Made by a program: the position numbers and the translations under genes. A DNA stretch of 64,000 nt from Dyella sp. SG609 (GTDB taxonomy: Bacteria; Pseudomonadota; Gammaproteobacteria; Xanthomonadales; Rhodanobacteraceae), in assembly GCF_012275375.1 (NCBI RefSeq), contig NZ_JAAZQJ010000013.1, forward strand, positions 1 to 64,000, written 5' to 3'. The stretch's first letter is position 1; every line of letters begins with the position of its first letter. The notes under the pieces are model-generated. The model saw only the letters and a list, made by a program, of their open reading frames with translations, had not been told where the DNA came from and searched no databases. Shown piece after piece: positions 46,392 through 57,707 of the stretch.

Positions 46392-48725
46392 TCAAGCCTT
46401 CGGGCGCGGGGTGGGCAAAACGCGGTCGCCCGCCAACTCGCGCGCCTTGCGCTGGTAGCGGTTCCACGACTCGGTCTGTCCCATCGCGCGGTACACGCAG
46501 GCCTGCGCCCAGGCCACGCGCCAGTCCAGCTGGCCCCAGGCGGAGAGCTGGCCGCTGATCACGAAAGCTTCGCTCACCTGGCCGCTTTCCAGCAGGGCCA
46601 GGGTGTAGGCCAGACCCGTGTCGGCGATCAGTTCCGGCACGCCGTAGCGGCTGGCCCGGTTCATGGCCTGCTTCAGCAGATCCAGCGCCGTCTCGCGGCG
46701 GCCCTCGGCCTGGGCCTGTATGGCTTGCGCACGCAGCAGCCGGATGGCGATCCAGTCGTCGCGGTCGGTGGAGGAAAGCTTGTCGGCCCAGGCCTGCATG
46801 GCGGACAGCGCCCGCTGGATTTCCTTCACGTCGCCGGCCTGCTGCGCGATCAGCGCGTCCAGCAGCCACGCATCGGCGGTGTCGCGCTGGTCGCCGTCCC
46901 ATGCCAGCAGATGCCCCGACAGGGCTTTGGCTATCCACGCCTGCGCGCCGCCGATATCGCCACGCTGCAGCGCGAGCTTGGCCAGCAACATGTATACCGT
47001 GGCTTTGAGGCCGGGCTCGCCATGGGGGTCGGCATCGATCTGCGCGAGCACCTGCTCCAGCAACGCGCCGGCTTCGGCGGCGCGGCCCATGCCGCCCAGG
47101 GCATCGGCGCGATGGAACATCAGGATATGGCGGCCGATGTTCTCGGTGTATTCCGGAAATTGTTTGTCGAGCGGCCAGTACCGCTCCGTGCTGGCGAAGG
47201 CATCGGCATGCTGCAGCAGCATCTTCTGCGAGATCACCAGGTCCGTCATCAGCGGTGGCACATACTGGCGCATGCCCAGGCGTTCGTATTGCCCGACCGC
47301 ACGCTGGATCACCGGAACGGCCTGGGCGAAGTGCCCGTGCTGCATGTTCAGTTCCGCCAGCGATTCGTCAATGCCCACCACGCCGGCGGTGTCGCCCGCC
47401 AGAGCATAGTTGACGCGCGCATCGCCGAAATCCGCCTGGGCCTCGTCGAAGCGGCCCGCCATGCTCAGCAGCTCGGCGCGCTGCGCATAGGCATAGGCCA
47501 GATAGCCCGTGTTGTTCTGCTGCTTCAGCAGGCTGATCGCTTCGAGCAGCGCCTGCGCCCCCTGCGCGTGCTTGTGTTCGCGGAAGTAGACGTACCATCG
47601 CTTCGCCAGCGTCCTTCCGCGCAGCACCGGCTGGGTCCTGGCCGGCAGGCGGTCCAGCAGGTTGGCCGATTCGGTCTTGCATGCCTCGTACTCCCCCTGG
47701 TCGCAGTAGAAGGCGACCTTGGCGTAGGCAAACGCCGGCGTCGTGCGCAGATCCGCCGGCGCGTTGTCGATCAGCTCGCGCAGCACGCCGAGCGTGCCCG
47801 CATAGGACGCCGCCTCCATGCGCAGCAGGTATTGCTCCTTGTCGTCTTCCGAAGCGACGCGGTCGGAATCGCTCGCGCCCAGCTGGGCGAGCAGGAGAGC
47901 GTTGGCCTCGTGCGCGGCCTTCAGCATGTTGACGGCGGAGGCCTCGGCCTGCAGGGCGCCGCCGTCGCGCATGCTCGCCTCGAGCTGGACATGCCAGCGG
48001 CCGTTGTCCAGCGTCACCTGGGGCTGGATCACCAGCGCATACGATGCAAGCGGCGCCGCGCCGCCCTGTTCCGGCCGGTCGAGCAGGTTGACCACGGTCC
48101 GGCTGCTTTCCACCGGCACCCTGGCGCCGCGCAGGTCGCCGACGATCAGGTCCATCAGGCCCAGGCGCAGCCACGCCCACTCTTCCGGTGCATGAATCTG
48201 CGCGGGCAGGACTACCGCGGTACCTCGCTGGAAAGCCTTGCTGGCGCGCCCATGGAAGCGCCATGCGCCGAAGCCGGCCACGGCCACCAGCAACAGCAGC
48301 GCCACGCCCCAGCGCAGGTGGCGGCGCCGGGGCGATGGCGCGCGGCGCGCGATGACCACCGGCTCATCGCCCGCCGCGGCCGGCGAGCACGGTGCGTCCG
48401 ACACGATCGACGTGGCCATCACCCAGCGGTAGCCCATGCGCGGCAAGGTCTTGATGCAGCGCTGCTCGTCCGCGTTGTCGCCAAGCACGCGGCGCAGGCG
48501 GACGATGGTCTGGGCGAGCAGGTTGTCGCTGATCTCGGTGCTGCCCCAGACCGCGGCGATCAGCTCGTCCTTGCCCACCGCCCGTTCGCGATGCTCGACC
48601 AGGTAGGCCAGGCAGTCGAAGGCGCTGGCGGTGAGTTCGACGGGATCGCCGTTCTGCAGCAGCTGGCGCGCCTGCGGATGGAGCTCGAATGCGCCGAACC
48701 GGTAAATCGTCGTCATGGGCGCCAT
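46392..48725 (-). CDS. CadC-like transmembrane regulator with TPR domain
   Basis: 777 residues (an internal ATG at 48714-48716 is an alternative start). Residues 1-105 form an OmpR-type winged helix (FELHPQARQLLQNG, VGKDELIAAVWG, LAQTIVRLRRVLGD, GYRWV), then a single membrane helix (WGVALLLLVAVAGFGAW), then about 600 helical residues of TPR-like repeats. It would read a periplasmic signal and bind DNA from the membrane. It is divergent, 151 bp away, from the eight-gene operon and is its likely regulator. Confidence 0.8.
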   Translation of the reverse strand: MAPMTTIYRFGAFELHPQARQLLQNGDPVELTASAFDCLAYLVEHRERAVGKDELIAAVWGSTEISDNLLAQTIVRLRRVLGDNADEQRCIKTLPRMGYRWVMATSIVSDAPCSPAAAGDEPVVIARRAPSPRRRHLRWGVALLLLVAVAGFGAWRFHGRASKAFQRGTAVVLPAQIHAPEEWAWLRLGLMDLIVGDLRGARVPVESSRTVVNLLDRPEQGGAAPLASYALVIQPQVTLDNGRWHVQLEASMRDGGALQAEASAVNMLKAAHEANALLLAQLGASDSDRVASEDDKEQYLLRMEAASYAGTLGVLRELIDNAPADLRTTPAFAYAKVAFYCDQGEYEACKTESANLLDRLPARTQPVLRGRTLAKRWYVYFREHKHAQGAQALLEAISLLKQQNNTGYLAYAYAQRAELLSMAGRFDEAQADFGDARVNYALAGDTAGVVGIDESLAELNMQHGHFAQAVPVIQRAVGQYERLGMRQYVPPLMTDLVISQKMLLQHADAFASTERYWPLDKQFPEYTENIGRHILMFHRADALGGMGRAAEAGALLEQVLAQIDADPHGEPGLKATVYMLLAKLALQRGDIGGAQAWIAKALSGHLLAWDGDQRDTADAWLLDALIAQQAGDVKEIQRALSAMQAWADKLSSTDRDDWIAIRLLRAQAIQAQAEGRRETALDLLKQAMNRASRYGVPELIADTGLAYTLALLESGQVSEAFVISGQLSAWGQLDWRVAWAQACVYRAMGQTESWNRYQRKARELAGDRVLPTPRPKA

Positions 48726-48876: not shown

Positions 48877-50457
48877 GTGTCGCCGTTCAATCTGTTTCAG
48901 CGCGTGTCCAAGGCGCCCACCAATCCGCGCGCCGAGCCGGCGCCGCGCAACTTCGACGTGGCGGAGCTGTACGAAGGGCCCGTGCGCACCGCGGCCGATG
49001 CCGAAGCGCAACCGGTCCGCCTCGACGAAAAGCTGCGCCAGGCGTATTTCTGGATCGTCAACAACGCGATCATCAGCCCGCACTACGACATCGAATACCA
49101 CGACGGCCCCGCCGCCACCTTCGCGGTGGGCGATACCCGCCGCACGCTCACCCTGCCCTCGGCGCAGAGCTATTCCAGCTATGTGCTGCTGCCGCTGCTC
49201 GCCTTCGCGGCGCGGCGCAAATGCCTGTTCATCGGCGGCCCCGGGCGCGGCAAGACGGCCAGCGCCATCCTGATGGGCGTGCTGGCCGGCTATCCGGTGC
49301 GCGAGGTGCGCCGCGCCATGCAGCACGGGCATCCGCAGATGACCATCGCCGACCTGCTCGGCAATCCGCTGCCGGCCGACCTGATGGCGGCGCAGGACAT
49401 GGGCGATATCCGCATCGCCTGGCGCAAGTGGCTGTCGATGCGGGTGAAGATCATCGACGAGTACAACCGCATCCCCACCCGCACGCAGAGCGCCCTGCTC
49501 ACCGTGATGGGCGACAACTACGCCGAGATCCTCAATCACGTCTACGAATGCCCGGAGTCGGCCTGGTACCTCACCGCCAACGACGACCGCGGCGGCGGCA
49601 CCTACCAGGTGGTGGAGGCCTTGCGCGACCGCATCGACGTGGTGGTGCAGGCGCTGGCCTTCAATCCGCGCTTCCTGGACGAGCTGCTGCTGCGCATCGA
49701 GGAGAACATCCGGCCGGAAGAAGTGGTGCCGCGCGACATCATCTTCGCCGAGGCGGAAGTCGACCGCCTGGGCGAGGAAATCCGCGCGGTGGACGTGCCG
49801 CAGGACGTGCGCCGGCGCGTGGAATTCTTCGCCAGCCAGTTCGAGCTGATGGAAACCGCCGGCGCGCAGTTCGAATACCTCACCAAGGACACCGTGCGCC
49901 TGGCCGGCGCCGACTGGGCGCAGGCCACCGCCGCCGACACCGGCCGCGACCGCATGAAGGACCTGGGCTGCCAGACCCGCAACGGCCTGTCGGTGCGCAA
50001 CCTCACCACCCTGCTGGTCTTCGCCAAGGCGCTGGCCTATTTCCGCGGCCAAGCGGCGGTGGCGCTGGACGACGTGCGCCACGTGCTGCCCTTCGTGCTC
50101 AACGACAAGCTGCAGCCGGACCTGGACGCGCCGTTCTTCGGCCTGCCCGAGAACGCCGCCTACCGCACCGACCGGCTGAGCTGGCTGCGCTGGCTGTTCG
50201 ACGCCTCCAACGCGGAATACGACCGCCTGGACCTGGACCGCAACGACCCGGTGGGCGAGCTGTCGGCGGAATTCGCGCACGGGCTGGACGGCTTGAGCGA
50301 GCGCGAGACGCGCGCGCGGCTGGTGCGCATCGAGCGGCTGATCGAGGAGCGGGTGAAGGGCCGCAAGCTCTACGGGCACCTGTACGACGATCTGCTGAAG
50401 CTCAAATACCTGCACCAGCGCTACACCAATTACCTGCACTGGCAGCAGGCGCGCTGA
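48877..50457 (+). CDS. MoxR-type AAA ATPase, first gene of the eight-gene operon
   Basis: 526 residues from a GTG. Walker A GGPGRGKTAS (about 120-129), Walker B VKIIDEYNRIP (about 192), sensor TANDD and a helical lid make it a MoxR/RavA-like AAA. These ATPases assist metal or cofactor insertion or act with VWA partners; a VWA protein is encoded two genes downstream. About 110 N-terminal residues are specific. Its TGA shares one base with the next ATG (TGATG). Confidence 0.85.
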   Translation: MSPFNLFQRVSKAPTNPRAEPAPRNFDVAELYEGPVRTAADAEAQPVRLDEKLRQAYFWIVNNAIISPHYDIEYHDGPAATFAVGDTRRTLTLPSAQSYSSYVLLPLLAFAARRKCLFIGGPGRGKTASAILMGVLAGYPVREVRRAMQHGHPQMTIADLLGNPLPADLMAAQDMGDIRIAWRKWLSMRVKIIDEYNRIPTRTQSALLTVMGDNYAEILNHVYECPESAWYLTANDDRGGGTYQVVEALRDRIDVVVQALAFNPRFLDELLLRIEENIRPEEVVPRDIIFAEAEVDRLGEEIRAVDVPQDVRRRVEFFASQFELMETAGAQFEYLTKDTVRLAGADWAQATAADTGRDRMKDLGCQTRNGLSVRNLTTLLVFAKALAYFRGQAAVALDDVRHVLPFVLNDKLQPDLDAPFFGLPENAAYRTDRLSWLRWLFDASNAEYDRLDLDRNDPVGELSAEFAHGLDGLSERETRARLVRIERLIEERVKGRKLYGHLYDDLLKLKYLHQRYTNYLHWQQAR

Positions 50458-51449
50458 TGGTCTCCGACACGCTCGCCGGCGTGCTGGCCTCGCGGCGCGC
50501 GCTGCTCAACCAGCGCGTGGCCGAGGCGCGGCATCAGCAGCCCGGGTTCGATACCGCGGCCTTCAGCGCCTTCGCGGGCGATACGCTCGATGCAGTGTGC
50601 GGGGCGGTGCAGGCCGTGGATCCGCTGGCCACCGGCGCGGCGGTGGAGGCGGCGTTCGAGATCGGCCTTACCCTGGTCGGCCAGGGACTGGCCGGACCGA
50701 AGGCGCGGCTGCCGTGGGTGGACCGCGCGTGGAAACAGCTCGCTGCGTCCATCGCCAGGCTGATCGCGCAGGCGCCCACCGAAACACTGGGCACGGTGAC
50801 CAATGCCGTCGTGCGCCTGAGCAGCATGCGCGGCGTGCGGGTGGAAGAGTGGATCGACACCATGCGCGCGCTGGCCGGCCGCTGCGCCGTGCTTGACGAG
50901 CTGCGCGCACTCGGCGCGCTGTGCGCCTGGCGCGCCGGCATGGCGCACCTGCGCGAGCCGGCGCTGGTGCAGGCCGATCGGCTGGACCCGGCACTGGCTT
51001 CGGCCGCGCTCGGTGCGCCCGACGTGCCATGGGCGAGCTTGCGCGAACGGCTGTCGGCCGATCGCTGGTGGAACCCATCCATCGGCGCGGTCGATGCGCA
51101 GGGCCAGACGCTCGGCGGTTTCAGCGGCATGGATGGCCCCTTCGCGGTGCCGCCGGCCATTCGCGCCGGCGCCGGGCATTTCGTGGCCGAGAGCGCGGGG
51201 CGCCATTTCCTGCTGATGGCCGATGCCTTCGGCGCGGTGGTGTTGCCGGCGGCGGCGAACGAGTTCGCGCAGGCCGACGCAGCCGTGGCGCCCGGCGTGG
51301 CGATCACGCCGCGCGGCGGCAGCGTGGGCGGACGCGAGATCGCGTTCGCTGTGCCGGGCGACCGCATGCAGGCGGTGGGCCGCGCCGACAGCGTGGCGCT
51401 CTTCTCGCCGTGGTCGCACCACGTGCGCATCGTGCCGGCGCGCGCGTGA
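50457..51449 (+). CDS. Unknown protein of the AAA/VWA/radical SAM operon
   Basis: 330 residues. No recognised domain. The N-terminal 180 residues are helical and Ala/Leu-rich; the C-terminal 120 include short beta strands (HFLLMADAFGAVVLPAAANEF, GGSVGGREIAFAVPG). No signal peptide or membrane helix. Overlaps the next gene by GTGA. Probably a structural partner of the AAA-VWA pair. Confidence 0.75.
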   Translation: MVSDTLAGVLASRRALLNQRVAEARHQQPGFDTAAFSAFAGDTLDAVCGAVQAVDPLATGAAVEAAFEIGLTLVGQGLAGPKARLPWVDRAWKQLAASIARLIAQAPTETLGTVTNAVVRLSSMRGVRVEEWIDTMRALAGRCAVLDELRALGALCAWRAGMAHLREPALVQADRLDPALASAALGAPDVPWASLRERLSADRWWNPSIGAVDAQGQTLGGFSGMDGPFAVPPAIRAGAGHFVAESAGRHFLLMADAFGAVVLPAAANEFAQADAAVAPGVAITPRGGSVGGREIAFAVPGDRMQAVGRADSVALFSPWSHHVRIVPARA

Positions 51450-53230
51450 GCGAGGGGCCTGCCACCGACACGCTGTCCCGCTGGCAGGCCGCATGGCCGG
51501 CCGCGCTGGAAGCCTGGAGCCGCTTCACCCGCCTGCGCGATCCGCGCCTGTGCGAGAGCCGCGTGGATGCCGCGGCCGAAGGCTTGCTCGGCAGTTTTGC
51601 GATGATCCGCCTGTTCGACCAGCGCGTGGTGATCGACCTGCCGGAAGTGGAGCGCCTGGGCCTGACCGATCACGCCGTGGAAATCCTGGCGCACGAGATC
51701 GGCCACCACGTGCTGGCCCCGGCCACCGCCACCGACCACGCCCGCCTGCTCGCGCGCCTGCGCCATGCGCTGCCCACGCTGGAAGCGCAGGCGCCGATGG
51801 TGGCCAACCTCTATACCGACCTGCTGATCAACGACCGCCTGGAGCGCCAGTGCGGCCTGCGCATGGCCGATATCTACCGCCGCCTGGCCGAACGCGATAC
51901 GTCGACAGAGACGACGCCGGTGTGGACGCTCTACATGGGCATCTACGAGCAGCTGTGGCAGCTGGCGCCCGGCTCGCTGGGCGGCCCGGTGGATGACGCG
52001 GCGCTGCGCGGCGACGCCTGGCTCGGCGCGCGCGTGGTGCGCGTCTATGCCGGCGAATGGATGGATGGCGCCTCGCGCTTCGCCGCCCTGCTGCTGCCGC
52101 ATCTGCTGCGCTCGGTGAAGGATTGGCGGGTGGACGTGCTGATGGATACGCGCAACGCCGGACAGGGCAGCCAGCCGGTGGGGCTGGAGCGCATCGAGGA
52201 CGGCGAGCTGGATCAGGCCGCGCATCCCGCGCTGGATCCGCGCATCACCGGCGAAGCGGAGACGCTGCCGCCGACACCGCCGGAGCTGCCGGCCGCGCTC
52301 AGCCGCCAGGGCGGCCAGGCGCGCGAGCCGTTCGAGTACGGGGAGATCCTGCGTTCCGCCGGCCTGGACCTGAGCGATCACGATATCGCCGTGCGCTACT
52401 ACCGCGAGCGCGCGCTGCCGCACCTGATCCGCTTTCCGGTGCGGCCGCAGCCGCAGGCCTTCGAGCCGCAGCTGGAAGGGCTGGAGCCGTGGGAAGCGGG
52501 CGATCCGCTGGATGCGCTGGACTGGATGCAGAGCCTGCTGCAGTCGCCGCGCGTGATTCCGGGGCTGACCACGGTGCAGCGCGCGTATGGCGATGCGCCG
52601 GGGCAGGATCCGGCCAGCGAGCCGGTGGACCTGGATCTGTACGTCGACAGCTCCGGCTCGATGCCCAATCCGCAGACGCACACCTCTTACCTGGCCCTCG
52701 CCGGCGCCATCATCGCGCTGTCCGCGCTGCGCGTCGGCGCGCGGGTGCAGGTCACCTTGTGGAGCGGCAAGCAGCAGGTGCTGCACACCGGCGGCTTCGT
52801 GCGTTCGGAGGACGACATCCTGCGCGTGCTCACCGGCTTCTTCGGCGGCGGCACGGCGTTTCCCATCCACCGCCTGCGCGATACCTACGCCCAGCGCGCG
52901 CCGCACGAACGCGCGGTGCATATCCTGCATATCTCCGACGACGGCATCACCACCATGTTCGCCAACGACGAGCGCGGCAACAGCGGCTGGGATGTCGCGG
53001 CGCGTGCGCTGGCCGCGGGCCGCGCGGGCGGCACCATGGCCTTGAACCTGTACACCCCGTTGCCGGCGCATCTGGCGCCGACGAGCCGGCCCTGGGAAGC
53101 GGACCTGCTGCGTGCGCAAGAGGCCGGCTGGGCCATCCACGCAGTGCGCGACATGGCCGACCTGCTCAGCTTTGCGCGCGAGTTCAGCCGGCGGCATTAC
53201 CAGCGGCCGGCAGCGGGAGTACGCGCATGA
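51446..53230 (+). CDS. HExxH zinc-site plus VWA-domain protein
   Basis: 594 residues from a GTG overlapping the previous stop. An HEIGHH motif (HExxH at 83-87) in EILAHEIGHHVLAP is a zincin-type metal site. The C-terminal 200 residues form a von Willebrand A domain with the MIDAS motif DSSGSM (401-406). The two are joined by a helical middle region. MoxR-VWA pairs usually work together, so this is the probable partner of the AAA ATPase. Whether the zinc site cuts peptides is unknown. Confidence 0.8.
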   Translation: MSEGPATDTLSRWQAAWPAALEAWSRFTRLRDPRLCESRVDAAAEGLLGSFAMIRLFDQRVVIDLPEVERLGLTDHAVEILAHEIGHHVLAPATATDHARLLARLRHALPTLEAQAPMVANLYTDLLINDRLERQCGLRMADIYRRLAERDTSTETTPVWTLYMGIYEQLWQLAPGSLGGPVDDAALRGDAWLGARVVRVYAGEWMDGASRFAALLLPHLLRSVKDWRVDVLMDTRNAGQGSQPVGLERIEDGELDQAAHPALDPRITGEAETLPPTPPELPAALSRQGGQAREPFEYGEILRSAGLDLSDHDIAVRYYRERALPHLIRFPVRPQPQAFEPQLEGLEPWEAGDPLDALDWMQSLLQSPRVIPGLTTVQRAYGDAPGQDPASEPVDLDLYVDSSGSMPNPQTHTSYLALAGAIIALSALRVGARVQVTLWSGKQQVLHTGGFVRSEDDILRVLTGFFGGGTAFPIHRLRDTYAQRAPHERAVHILHISDDGITTMFANDERGNSGWDVAARALAAGRAGGTMALNLYTPLPAHLAPTSRPWEADLLRAQEAGWAIHAVRDMADLLSFAREFSRRHYQRPAAGVRA

Positions 53231-54186
53231 TCGTGCTGTGGCGCATCAGCACGCTATGCAACCTGGCCTGCGGTTTTTGCGCGTACGACCGGCGGCTGCG
53301 GCTGGTGCGGCAGGAATCCGATCCGGCCGAGGTGGAACGCTTCGCCGCCCTGCTCGGCGCGTACGGCCGCGCTCATGGCGAAGACATGCTGATCAGCTGG
53401 CTGGGCGGCGAGCCGCTGCTGTGGCCGGGCGTGCTCGCGCTTTCGCAGCGCCTGCGCGAAAGCCACGGCCTGCGCATCAGCGTCACCACCAATGGCAGCA
53501 CCTTGCATCGGCCCGGCGTGGTGGAGGCCATGGCCGCGGCGTTCGACGAAGTGACGCTCAGCATCGACGACGTCGGCGAGGCGCACGAACGCCTGCGCGG
53601 CTGGCCCGGTGGCTGGCGGCGGCTGGAGCAGGGCATCGCGCGCCTGGTTGCGCGGCGCGGCGCCGCGGGCGGCACGCCGAAGCTGCGCGTCAATACGGTG
53701 CTGATGCACGACACTCTGGAACGCTTCCCGGCGCTGTGCGACCGCCTCGCGGACTGGGGCGTGGACGAGATCACCTTCAACCAGCTCGGCGGCCGCGACC
53801 GTCCGCAGTTCCACGCCGGCCACGCCTTGCGCGCCGCCGACGTGGCCTGGCTGCGCGCCCAGCTGCCGGCGCTGGTGGCGCGCATGGCAGCGCGCGGCGT
53901 GCGCCTGTGCGCGCACGATGCTTACCTCGAGCGCTTCGAGGCCAGCGCCAGCGGCCGCGCGATTGCGGTGGCCAATTGCGCGCCGCGCCGCCCCACCATC
54001 TTTATCGACGAGCACGGCCGCATCGCGCCGTGCAGCTTCACCATCGACCATAGCCCCATGAGCACCCGCGACATCCGCACCGCGCACGACGTAACCGCCC
54101 TGCGCGCACGGCTCGCCGTCCGCCAGTCCGCGGCGGTGTGCGCGGACTGTCCTTCCACCCAGGTTTTCGCCAAGTTCGGGACATGA
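53227..54186 (+). CDS. Radical SAM enzyme with Cys-rich C-terminus
   Basis: 319 residues. The cluster motif CNLACGFC (Cys11, Cys15, Cys18) and the SAM-binding LGGEPLLWP are clear. Near the C-terminus, C-A-P, a later PCSF and CADC suggest an auxiliary SPASM/Twitch-type cluster, common in enzymes that modify peptides. Overlaps both neighbours (ATGA). No small precursor peptide is obvious within the operon, so the substrate may be the proteins encoded here. Confidence 0.85.
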   Translation: MIVLWRISTLCNLACGFCAYDRRLRLVRQESDPAEVERFAALLGAYGRAHGEDMLISWLGGEPLLWPGVLALSQRLRESHGLRISVTTNGSTLHRPGVVEAMAAAFDEVTLSIDDVGEAHERLRGWPGGWRRLEQGIARLVARRGAAGGTPKLRVNTVLMHDTLERFPALCDRLADWGVDEITFNQLGGRDRPQFHAGHALRAADVAWLRAQLPALVARMAARGVRLCAHDAYLERFEASASGRAIAVANCAPRRPTIFIDEHGRIAPCSFTIDHSPMSTRDIRTAHDVTALRARLAVRQSAAVCADCPSTQVFAKFGT

Positions 54187-54770
54187 GCATGCCGGCCGGA
54201 CCTTCGCTCGAACGATTGCTGCGGCGCCTGATCGAGACGCCGCCGGATTTCCTCGCCCCGCCCTGGCGCGGCGGCGAAGGCCAGGTGCGCGTGGCCGCCG
54301 TGGTCAACGACGTGCTCGCCGCGCTGGATGTGCAGGCGCCGATGAGCCTGCTCGCCACGCTGTCCGGCGAACTCAAAGCCGTGTCCGCCGAGCAGCTGAG
54401 CTTGTCGGCGGTGCTGGCCTGGCTGCTGGCGGACGACGCCTGGCACCGTTTCGCCAAGGCCTCGCCCGCGCTGCCGGCGTTGTTCGCCGAGGCGGTCCCT
54501 GCGCTTGCCGCCGAAGCGCATGCCTCGCGCTACGTGTTCGAACCCGAGCGCCGCGAGGAATTGGCGCGCACCGCCATCGCACGGCTGGGCCTGACGCCCG
54601 AAGGCGAAACCGCCAGCCAGGCGGCGGATCGGCTCGCCAGCGTCAGCGGCGTCGAGCGGCGCCGGCTGCTGGAGGCCAGCCGCGAAGCCGAGGCGCGTGC
54701 GCGCGCCATCCGCGAAGCGCTGGCGCGCAAGGCGGCCGAGGAATCCGCGGACAAGTGGACGCGCGAGTGA
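54183..54770 (+). CDS. Unknown helical protein with coiled-coil tail
   Basis: 195 residues. Alpha-helical throughout; the last 45 residues (VERRRLLEASREAEARARAI...) are a charged coiled coil. No recognised domain. Overlaps the radical SAM stop (ATGA) and the next gene by GTGA. Confidence 0.7.
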   Translation: MSMPAGPSLERLLRRLIETPPDFLAPPWRGGEGQVRVAAVVNDVLAALDVQAPMSLLATLSGELKAVSAEQLSLSAVLAWLLADDAWHRFAKASPALPALFAEAVPALAAEAHASRYVFEPERREELARTAIARLGLTPEGETASQAADRLASVSGVERRRLLEASREAEARARAIREALARKAAEESADKWTRE

Positions 54771-56116
54771 GCCGCGAACCGACGGACGCCGAGCGCTATC
54801 CGACGCTGAGCGAGGCGGGCCGGGCGATGCTGCGCTTCATGAGCGAGCACCCCAGTGCGCCGATGCTGCGCAATCGCAGCGGCAATCGCCTGCTGGCCGA
54901 AGAGGTCGAGGACTTGCGCGCCTACGAGCGCGAAGTGGCCGCTGCGCGCTTCGCATGGAGCACGCGCCACGCACCGCCATGGCTCGATGCTTTCGTCGAT
55001 GAGGTGTTTGCGCAGGTCCCGCACTATCGCTCGCTCGGCCGGCCGGCTGGCTTCGCGCAGATCGCCACGGTGGGCCGCGGCGATCTCGCCGCCGATATCG
55101 CACAGTTCGTGCCCGACGCCGTGCCACTGGATCGACTCATCAACTTCCGCACCACCGGCACCACCGGCCATCCGCTGATCCTGCCATCGCACCCGCTGGT
55201 GGCCGGCCGCTATCTGGCGTTCCACCAGCGCGCGCTGCGGCGCGCCGGCATCGAACTGCGCCATGGCCGCGGCCAGGTCGGCGTGATGCTGCTGGGCCTG
55301 CAGCGCAAATGCTTCACCTATATCTCGGTCACGCCGACCATGGACGAGTCGGGCCTGGCCAAGATCAACCTGCATCCGGACGACTGGCGCGATCCCGCCG
55401 ACCGCGCGCGCTATCTCGATGCGATGCAGCCGGAGGTGATCGCCGGCGATCCGATTTCCTTCGCGGCGCTGCTGGAACTGCCGGTACGCCACCGGCCGCG
55501 CGCCCTGCTCTCGGTATCGATGGCCTTGTCCGCATCGCTGCGCGCGAACTTGAGCGAGCGCTTCGGCTGCCCGGTGCTGGACGTGTATTCGATGAACGAG
55601 GCGGGCCCGCTGGGTGTGTACGACGAGACACTCGATGCCTTCGTGCTGCTGCAGCCCCGCATGTACGTGGAAACCCTGGATGCGCACGGCCACCCGGTGC
55701 CGCAGGGACAATCCGGCGAAATCGCACTGACCGGCGGCTTCAACTTCTGCCTGCCGCTGCTGCGCTACCGCACCGGTGACCACGGCGTGCTGATCGACAC
55801 CCCTGAAGGCCCCGCCATCGCACAACTGCATGGACGCCAGCCGGTACGCTTCCTCACCCTGGACGGCGACTGGATCAACAATATCGATCTGACCCATGCG
55901 CTGCTGCCGTTGCCGCTGTCGCGCTACACCGTGCATCAGGCCGCGAACGGCGACGTGGCGGTGGCGCTGGCGCGGGCCGAAATGAACTACGCCAGCGAAG
56001 CGGCAAACCGGGTATCCGCCGCGCTGCGCGGACGCGACATCCGCGTTATCGAACTCACCAGCGAGGACAAAGTGCTGCAATACACCACCGACCTGCCCGG
56101 AGGCATGGCCGCATGA
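54767..56116 (+). CDS. PaaK-like AMP-forming (adenylating) enzyme
   Basis: 449 residues from the GTG at 54767-54769 (a GTG at 54755 is also in frame). The ATP loop FRTTGTTGHPLILP, the YSMNEAGPLG segment and RYRTGDHG place it with the phenylacetate-CoA ligase / coenzyme F390 synthetase branch of the ANL superfamily. Such enzymes make acyl adenylates and transfer them to thiols or amines. The usual C-terminal domain is reduced. Stop overlaps the pnuC start. Confidence 0.8.
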   Translation: MSREPTDAERYPTLSEAGRAMLRFMSEHPSAPMLRNRSGNRLLAEEVEDLRAYEREVAAARFAWSTRHAPPWLDAFVDEVFAQVPHYRSLGRPAGFAQIATVGRGDLAADIAQFVPDAVPLDRLINFRTTGTTGHPLILPSHPLVAGRYLAFHQRALRRAGIELRHGRGQVGVMLLGLQRKCFTYISVTPTMDESGLAKINLHPDDWRDPADRARYLDAMQPEVIAGDPISFAALLELPVRHRPRALLSVSMALSASLRANLSERFGCPVLDVYSMNEAGPLGVYDETLDAFVLLQPRMYVETLDAHGHPVPQGQSGEIALTGGFNFCLPLLRYRTGDHGVLIDTPEGPAIAQLHGRQPVRFLTLDGDWINNIDLTHALLPLPLSRYTVHQAANGDVAVALARAEMNYASEAANRVSAALRGRDIRVIELTSEDKVLQYTTDLPGGMAA

Positions 56117-56682
56117 CCTTGCTGGAAGGCGTCGCCAACGCCCTGGCCACCGCATCGATCCTGCTGGCCGGCCGCAACAGCGTGCATACCTGGTGGACCG
56201 GCATCGCCGGCTGCTCCCTGTTCGCCCTGCTGTTCTGGGACACGCGCCTGTACGCCGACGTGCTGCTGCAGGTGTTCTTCGTCGGCGCCAGCGTGGTCGG
56301 CTGGTGGTACTGGAGCCGGCATGGCGAGCGCGCGGAACTGCCGATCGGCCGCACCGCGCCGCGCACGCTGGCCTGGTTCGTGGCGGGCGCGGCGGTGGCC
56401 ACCCTCGTGTACGGTTCGCTGCTGCATCGCTTTACCGATGCCTACGCACCGTTTGCCGATTCGACCGTGCTGGCCTTGTCGGTGCTGGCGCAACTGCTGC
56501 TGATGCGGCGGCGGATCGAGACCTGGCCGATCTGGCTGCTGGTCAACAGCGTGGCGGTGCCGCTGTATGCCTCGCGCGGGCTGATGCTGACGGCCGTGCT
56601 TTATTCGGCGTACTGGATCAATGCATGGGTGGCGTGGCGGCATTGGCACAATCTGTTCCGGCGTGCGGAAGCGGTGGCGTGA
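56113..56682 (+). CDS. pnuC: PnuC-family nicotinamide riboside transporter
   Basis: 189 residues with 6-7 membrane helices. VFFVGASVVGWWYWSRHG and the closing WINAWVAWRHW are PnuC features. It facilitates uptake of nicotinamide riboside, which the following NadR traps by phosphorylation. Start overlaps the PaaK-like gene, stop overlaps nadR. Confidence 0.85.
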   Translation: MTLLEGVANALATASILLAGRNSVHTWWTGIAGCSLFALLFWDTRLYADVLLQVFFVGASVVGWWYWSRHGERAELPIGRTAPRTLAWFVAGAAVATLVYGSLLHRFTDAYAPFADSTVLALSVLAQLLLMRRRIETWPIWLLVNSVAVPLYASRGLMLTAVLYSAYWINAWVAWRHWHNLFRRAEAVA

Positions 56683-57707
56683 AGCGTTTCGGCACCGCTC
56701 TGGTGGTGGGCAAGTTCTGTCCGCTGCATCGGGGACATCAATATCTGCTCGATCGCGCGCAAGCCGCATGCGAGCAGCTGGTGATCGTCAGCTATACCAG
56801 GCCGGAGTTTCCCGGTTGCGAACCGGAGCGGCGCGAGCGCTGGCTGGCGGCGCTGTATCCGCGGGCGACGCGACTGGTGGTCGACGATGCGCGGCTGGCG
56901 GCTTATGGCGTCGCGTTGCCGCCTAACGAAGCATCGGACGAGGAACATCGCGCTTTCGTGGCCTGGCTGCTGCGCGAAGTGCTGCACGTGGACGTGGAGG
57001 CCGTCTTTACCAGCGAGGCCTACGGCGACGGCTTCGCCGCGTCGCTGTCGCGGGCGCAGGGCGAGCGCGGTGGCCCGGCGGTGATGCATGTCTGCGTGGA
57101 TGCCGCGCGCTCCGCCATCCCCGTATCGGGCACGGCGGTGCGTGCGGACGTCCATCGTGCGCGCGCTTCGCTCGATCCCCTGGTGTATGGCGACTTCGTG
57201 CGGCGCGTGGCGATCCTCGGTGGCGAATCCACCGGCAAGTCCACCCTCGCGGCGCAGTTGGCCAACGCGCTGGGCACGGTCCATGCCGCCGAATACGGCC
57301 GCGAACTGTGGGAGCACAAGCAGGGGCGACTCGTCGCGGACGACATGCTGCCTATCGCCCGGACCCAGGTGGCCCGCGAAGAACAACTGGCGCCCACCGC
57401 GCAACGCTTCCTGCTTTGCGACACCACGCCATTGACCACCCTGCTCTATGCGCAAGCCATGTTCGGCCATGCCTGCCCCGAACTGGAAGCGCTCGCGCAA
57501 CGCCCCTACGACGAGGTGCTGCTGTGCGCGCCCGACGTCCCCTTCATCCAGGACGGCACGCGGCGCGACGAAGCCTTCCGCGCATGGCAACACCAATGGT
57601 ACCTGCGCGAACTCGCGGCCCGCGGCGTCCGCTATCGCCTGCTGACCGGCGGGTGGCAGGCACGCACTGCCATGGCGCTGGGTCTTCTGTCCGCACCGGC
57701 CATTTAA
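56679..57707 (+). CDS. nadR: NadR-like NMN adenylyltransferase / ribosylnicotinamide kinase
   Basis: 342 residues from a GTG overlapping pnuC. The nucleotidyltransferase motif GKFCPLHRGHQ opens the N-terminal domain and ISGTAVRAD-type VSGTAVRAD closes it; the C-terminal kinase has Walker A GGESTGKST and a DTTPLTT segment. It converts nicotinamide riboside to NMN and then NAD. No N-terminal HTH, so not a repressor. Last gene of the operon. Confidence 0.88.
   Translation: MKRFGTALVVGKFCPLHRGHQYLLDRAQAACEQLVIVSYTRPEFPGCEPERRERWLAALYPRATRLVVDDARLAAYGVALPPNEASDEEHRAFVAWLLREVLHVDVEAVFTSEAYGDGFAASLSRAQGERGGPAVMHVCVDAARSAIPVSGTAVRADVHRARASLDPLVYGDFVRRVAILGGESTGKSTLAAQLANALGTVHAAEYGRELWEHKQGRLVADDMLPIARTQVAREEQLAPTAQRFLLCDTTPLTTLLYAQAMFGHACPELEALAQRPYDEVLLCAPDVPFIQDGTRRDEAFRAWQHQWYLRELAARGVRYRLLTGGWQARTAMALGLLSAPAI

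Follow-up and report, generated by a model that had tools for sequence, protein, structure and literature searches.

A conserved MoxR-VWA gene module in Dyella sp. SG609 with an adenylating enzyme and accessory NAD genes

Whether eight closely packed genes of unlike function make up a single system, and what such a system might do, is the question raised by positions 48877-57707 of a 64,000-nucleotide stretch from Dyella sp. SG609 (contig NZ_JAAZQJ010000013.1; this whole stretch is hereafter called the window). An initial annotation, made from the letters alone, had described there an operon of eight open reading frames (ORFs), named A to H here, which joins a MoxR-type AAA+ ATPase (A), a von Willebrand factor A (VWA) protein (C), a radical S-adenosylmethionine (SAM) enzyme (D), a PaaK-like adenylating enzyme (F), and a PnuC transporter and NadR-like enzyme (G and H) linking nicotinamide riboside (NR) to nicotinamide adenine dinucleotide (NAD), together with two proteins that match no known family (B and E). 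Direct inspection of the sequence confirmed the eight genes, all on the plus strand, and the overlap of all seven junctions, namely TGATG at 50457 (A/B), 4-base GTGA overlaps at 51449, 54770, and 56682, and 4-base ATGA overlaps at 53230, 54186, and 56116. The 4-base E/F overlap is favoured because F homologues begin near the residue encoded by the GTG at 54767 (the other possible start being GTG 54755). Four-base overlaps are frequent in operons and are weak evidence when taken alone; the strong evidence for a functional set is the recurrence of gene order and content across six phyla, and it is on this ground that the genes may be said to form one set, as had been claimed. The window carries a single copy of a conserved gene module that has spread horizontally; its core consists of five proteins (A, B, C, E, and F), with radical SAM and NAD genes as accessories.

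A scan of 84,980 species genomes yielded 255 confirmed relatives of C, and the locus analyses were carried out on the best 80 of these 255, a set skewed towards sequences close to the query and with many Janthinobacterium loci. The 80 loci come from Pseudomonadota (66), Verrucomicrobiota (6), Acidobacteriota (3), Chloroflexota (3), Gemmatimonadota (1), and Thermodesulfobacteriota (1), and the order A-B-C-[D]-E-F-[G]-H was found again at unrelated sites in these six phyla, being near-constant wherever the genes are present. C is present in 10 of 99 genomes of the same order as Dyella, and all five genomes tested from the same genus lack the module. When 398 genomes were drawn evenly from the phylum, six gave a match, in three cases a weak one confined to the VWA part; the module is thus rare, with a patchy distribution. 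No relative of C was detected on the plasmids or viral contigs searched. Outside A-H, the flanks contain no conserved extra gene common to distant taxa, and shared flanking genes are almost confined to Janthinobacterium; a PADLOC search of 124 flanking proteins returned scattered single matches and no defence island. The empty insertion site in the genus could not be reconstructed, since homologues there of the gene downstream of the module are only ~50% identical.

Gene presence was assessed by profile mapping of the 80 loci, and counts were taken from the 67 loci that are fully covered. B and C occur in all 67, A and E in 66 each, and F in 65, compared with 58 loci for H (NadR), 32 for G (PnuC), and 27 for D (radical SAM); by taxon (n = 35, genus or next rank), the numbers are 35 for B and C, 34 for A and E, 33 for F, 28 for H, 24 for G, and 22 for D. 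The MoxR gene is linked to a VWA gene with a complete metal ion-dependent adhesion site (MIDAS) in 66 of the 67 loci. In the 99 same-order genomes, E and C coincide completely: each of the 10 C-positive genomes has E, and the other 89 lack it. Four C-positive genomes of one family have a wholly or partly dispersed module and yet keep its genes: A lies on another contig than C in three dispersed genomes and retains 62-71% identity there, and in another dispersed genome (G086) A-B-C are together on one contig with D and E on a second. That the genes persist even when scattered points to a functional unit and speaks against mere hitchhiking as the cause of their linkage. D is absent genome-wide from 12 of the 13 checked genomes that lack it at the locus, and is found elsewhere only in G086. 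With these counts for D and G, and with NadR missing from seven fully covered loci and from the four genomes with a dispersed module, the idea of all eight genes as one obligatory pathway is not supported.

Several loci show peculiarities of layout. A Chloroflexi locus (L103:14377-17228) carries a second D-E-F set downstream of A-B-C-E-F-H, in which the second E is partly in one open frame with F. In another locus, 5.4 kb lie between C and D (L054:11767-17139), and in a third a different VWA (DQSGSM) gene set on the minus strand adjoins the module (L078:14712-20697). In the window, a divergent gene upstream (46392-48725, minus strand) resembles, by eye, a winged-helix regulator with a repeat region, and is not conserved with the module. 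Rfam matched no riboswitch or other RNA at the locus, and promoter- or terminator-like sites inside the operon are at chance level only.

Profile searches recovered the domains named in the initial annotation (AAA_3/AAA_lid_2, radical SAM, AMP-binding, NMN_transporter, and NadR-type nicotinamide mononucleotide (NMN) adenylyltransferase plus kinase), and B and E again fell outside any family. A (48877-50457, 526 aa) matches Pfam AAA_3 and AAA_lid_2, both above cut-off, and its Walker A (GGPGRGKT) and Walker B (IIDEYNR) motifs are at least 97% conserved in 75 sequences. C (51446-53230, 594 aa) has a zinc-site-like domain with the motif HEIGHH (HExxH), followed by a C-terminal VWA domain with a full MIDAS (D401-x-S403-x-S405, T470, and D498), and these residues are at least 97% conserved in 80 sequences; its VWA domain lies below the Pfam cut-off, with weak matches to VWA_2 and M48. 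In Duganella sacchari, C is interrupted between the N-terminal and VWA halves (L087:10963-10967), which may reflect gene disruption or faulty assembly.

B (50457-51449, 330 aa) has no Pfam or NCBIfam match and is predicted by AlphaFold2 to consist of a helical N-terminal domain and a C-terminal beta domain (predicted local distance difference test (pLDDT) 96.6, predicted template modelling score (pTM) 0.93), its beta part weakly resembling a partial beta-propeller (VIA-align Z values reach 7.9, which is middling). The helical protein E (54183-54770, 195 aa) matches no curated family in Pfam or NCBIfam either; its AlphaFold2 model (pLDDT 93.9) gave middling Z values and nothing useful with VIA-align. 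Neither model has a Foldseek match in PDB with an E-value of 0.001 or less, which by itself does not prove new folds. No convincing Pfam or solved-structure match and no strong PADLOC model were found for B and E, which were not compared directly with VMAP or iSTAND profiles. E ends in a 39-residue helix with a near-invariant C-terminus, ADKW(T/S)RE in most sequences, and this tail stops at the same residue in all loci, including those without E/F overlap, so its conservation is at the protein level. Given this tail, E is a good candidate for a handle or client.

D (53227-54186, 319 aa) matches Pfam Radical_SAM (E-value 1.5e-15) and has a CxxxCxxC motif and four further conserved C-terminal cysteines (251, 269, 305, and 308). 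An assignment of D to the viperins (pVip) was considered and rejected, its score being 49.6 bits against an NCBIfam viperin cut-off of 180. Only two sites in A, B, C, E, F, and H, both unremarkable, vary with the presence of D; this speaks against a fixed module residue as the target of D. F (54767 or 54755 to 56116) is above the Pfam AMP-binding cut-off and contains all ANL catalytic motifs, including the C-terminal Lys, at a conservation of at least 97%; its best NCBIfam match is the DVU_1553 family (72 bits against a cut-off of 300), and its PDB relatives are phenylacetate-CoA ligases.

G (56113-56682, 189 aa) matches Pfam NMN_transporter (E-value 3.3e-47) and is a PnuC by NCBIfam, scoring 85.7 bits on TIGR01528 against a cut-off of 42.45. 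H (56679-57707, 342 aa), a NadR-like NMN adenylyltransferase and ribosylnicotinamide kinase, matches TIGR01526 (E-value 6.7e-44) with 150 bits and is thus below the curated NadR threshold of 341. Its nucleotidyltransferase (GxFxPxHxGH) and P-loop kinase sites are conserved in 65 sequences and its structural matches are NadRs; it has no DNA-binding domain. Six of the 99 same-order genomes contain NadR; each is C-positive and has it inside the cluster, and the C-negative genomes have none except a spurious 55-residue stretch with a stop. The hypergeometric probability of this restriction by chance is 1.9e-7 if genomes were independent, a figure that overstates the surprise as the genomes are related. 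PnuC alone is common (47 of the 99 genomes). In addition, the pairwise divergence of H tracks that of C (r 0.66), with none of 2000 permutations giving a value as high.

At two loci (L072 and L100), a PnuC-NadR pair is located directly upstream of A and is only ~33-37% identical to the pair in the window, though A itself is 78-79% identical. The NadR of these loci groups with a stand-alone actinobacterial NadR, and this pair probably represents a second, separate recruitment of PnuC-NadR. The initial annotation had left room for the NAD part to be separable; with NadR at most of the related loci and taxa, its tracking of C, and its seemingly repeated recruitment, this is not what we observed. 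The NAD link is probably functional, yet accessory. Two Chloroflexi modules have NadR reduced to the NMN adenylyltransferase domain (L102:14223-14759 and L103:13807-14265). A Sphingomonas locus retains only a C-terminal NadR remnant directly after F (L051:14645-14806), which looks like a recent loss.

Based on these data, we tentatively propose, while granting it somewhat less than an even chance, that the module is a MoxR-VWA remodelling machine that has its own dedicated partners and is coupled to the adenylation of a carboxylate and the supply of NAD. In CbbQO and NorQD, a VWA MIDAS protein and a MoxR ring remodel a client (PMC4660213, PMC13036017); the MIDAS of CbbO engages an acidic residue of rubisco (PMC4660213), and a finger of the NorD VWA domain enters the NorQ pore (PMC13036017). 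By analogy, A would form an ATP-driven ring and C would be its adaptor, with a MIDAS gripping an acidic residue of a partner and an N-terminal half carrying a zinc-type site. B and E may be the dedicated partners, the long C-terminal helix and tail of E serving as a handle engaged by A or C. For the same process, F might turn a carboxylate into its activated acyl-adenylate form. G and H might import NR and convert it to NAD, thereby replacing NAD or NMN used by the core or keeping up its supply, and D might add an optional radical reaction. That a complex forms, that E acts as its handle, and that NAD flows in this direction is what we infer; consumption of NAD or a nicotinamide nucleotide by the module, as had been suggested, is possible. 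A further step, which we hold to be doubtful, would be an AAA+ machine of a new class: the MoxR-VWA complex would act on E, its own tail-bearing partner, and would link remodelling with both acyl-adenylate chemistry and the turnover of NAD, perhaps in a previously unseen NAD-dependent protein modification or cofactor loading. MoxR-VWA pairs are widespread and few have a known client, whereas this module brings its own conserved partners, so that machine and probable handle can be tested together. B and E also define two families that Pfam and NCBIfam lack; their structures are predicted with confidence and have no significant match in PDB. If the proposal is true, the tie from NR to NAD, apparently made more than once, would connect protein remodelling with NAD metabolism, a link not described in the papers searched.

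Several observations weigh against this proposal. Unlike cbb or nor clusters, the operon encodes no client enzyme. The loci and genomes without NadR imply that the A-F core can exist without it and that NAD supply is not always needed. The test of separate recruitment is marginal, since forcing the NadR of L072 and L100 with the module NadRs is rejected only at an approximately unbiased test value (p-AU) of 0.038 and with long branches. Plasmid records, among them those of E. coli, Leptospira, and Nostoc, also contain stand-alone PnuC-NadR pairs, which could serve plain nutrition. One of them (L115:8007-9565, E. coli plasmid record NZ_CP048308.1) is 50% identical to H and is without the A-F core; it is flanked by alr/dnaB on one side and by tyrB and a 2-oxoglutarate dehydrogenase operon on the other.

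These plasmid-borne pairs, together with the seven full loci without NadR, would fit a nutritional origin of the NAD genes, in which a PnuC-NadR pair joined a mobile module by chance and its benefit is NR scavenging only. We regard this as quite unlikely, because NadR is lacking (bar the spurious match) from the module-free genomes among the 99, its divergence follows that of C, and a second, divergent pair apparently joined at another position. The enzymes might instead build a nucleotide-linked small molecule or cofactor: F would activate an acid or adenylylate a cofactor, D would contribute radical chemistry where present, H would act as kinase and adenylyltransferase on an intermediate instead of, or besides, NAD, and A-C would load the product into an enzyme. 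Enzymes of nucleotide chemistry with intact catalytic motifs do share one operon, H falls short of the NadR family cut-off, and the two Chloroflexi keep just its adenylyltransferase domain. Moreover, housekeeping NadD is over cut-off in eight of ten genomes (weak in one more; NadA is present in six of the ten), so basic NAD supply in them does not depend on H. However, PnuC scores as a true NR transporter, the active sites of H look standard for NadR, its closest solved relatives are NadRs, and D is missing from most loci; such a biosynthetic role is therefore unlikely in our view.

A conflict system against phages or stress, in which the core would act on invasion and NadR/PnuC would restore NAD, is suggested by the MoxR-VWA ternary systems, themselves proposed conflict systems (PMC7159879), and by the patchy distribution seen in the even draw (6 of 398, including the three weak matches over the VWA part only). 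Nevertheless, apart from a resemblance between D and viperins as radical SAM proteins in general, PADLOC gave no convincing match for any component, the 124 flanking proteins show no defence island, relatives of C were not found in viral contigs or plasmids, and neither variable effectors nor a VMAP-, iSTAND-, or FtsH-like third component was recognised, which makes a conflict role very unlikely.

Each of the known systems compared shares some features with the module and differs from it in others. As in the rubisco activase CbbQ-CbbO, a MoxR ATPase is encoded with a protein bearing a C-terminal full-MIDAS VWA domain, and as in NorQ-NorD, which acts in FeB insertion into cytochrome c-dependent nitric oxide reductase (cNOR), a MoxR ring and VWA partner would form a remodelling unit. 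Neither rubisco nor cNOR is among the operon genes by Pfam, however, and the module differs from both in the HExxH domain of C, from the former in the extra core proteins B, E, and F, and from the latter in the adenylating enzyme and NAD genes. The nearest conceptual relatives are the vWA-MoxR ternary conflict systems of the VMAP, iSTAND, and FtsH types (Kaur et al. 2020, eLife, PMC7159879), in which MoxR and VWA genes likewise have further conserved partners and a stand-alone radical SAM protein belongs to one FtsH subtype (PMC7159879); the module differs in its fixed core, lacking variable effectors and any recognised VMAP, iSTAND, or FtsH component. DUF2201 proteins, with a metallopeptidase-like domain and VWA, share the placement of an HExxH region before VWA (hhalign of the VWA part, E-value 1e-4, probability 57), but their N-terminal domains do not align with C, and PF13203 is unmatched in the genome of the window. 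A kinship of the HExxH domain of C with DUF2201, suggested by a similar NxxxDxxIN motif, was dropped after profile comparison gave no support for it. G and H belong to the families of PnuC-NadR salvage, with the active-site motifs of H intact, and are distinguished by the missing DNA-binding domain of H and by their place within the A-F core, with which they are inherited together. F shares the ANL adenylation motifs of the AMP-dependent CoA ligase/PaaK proteins of the DVU_1553 family and scores far below their cut-off. No open-licence paper joining MoxR with NadR or PnuC and the other parts was found, and no described system with this combination emerged from the libraries and papers searched, in keeping with the earlier claim; provisionally, we consider the module to be new as a combination.

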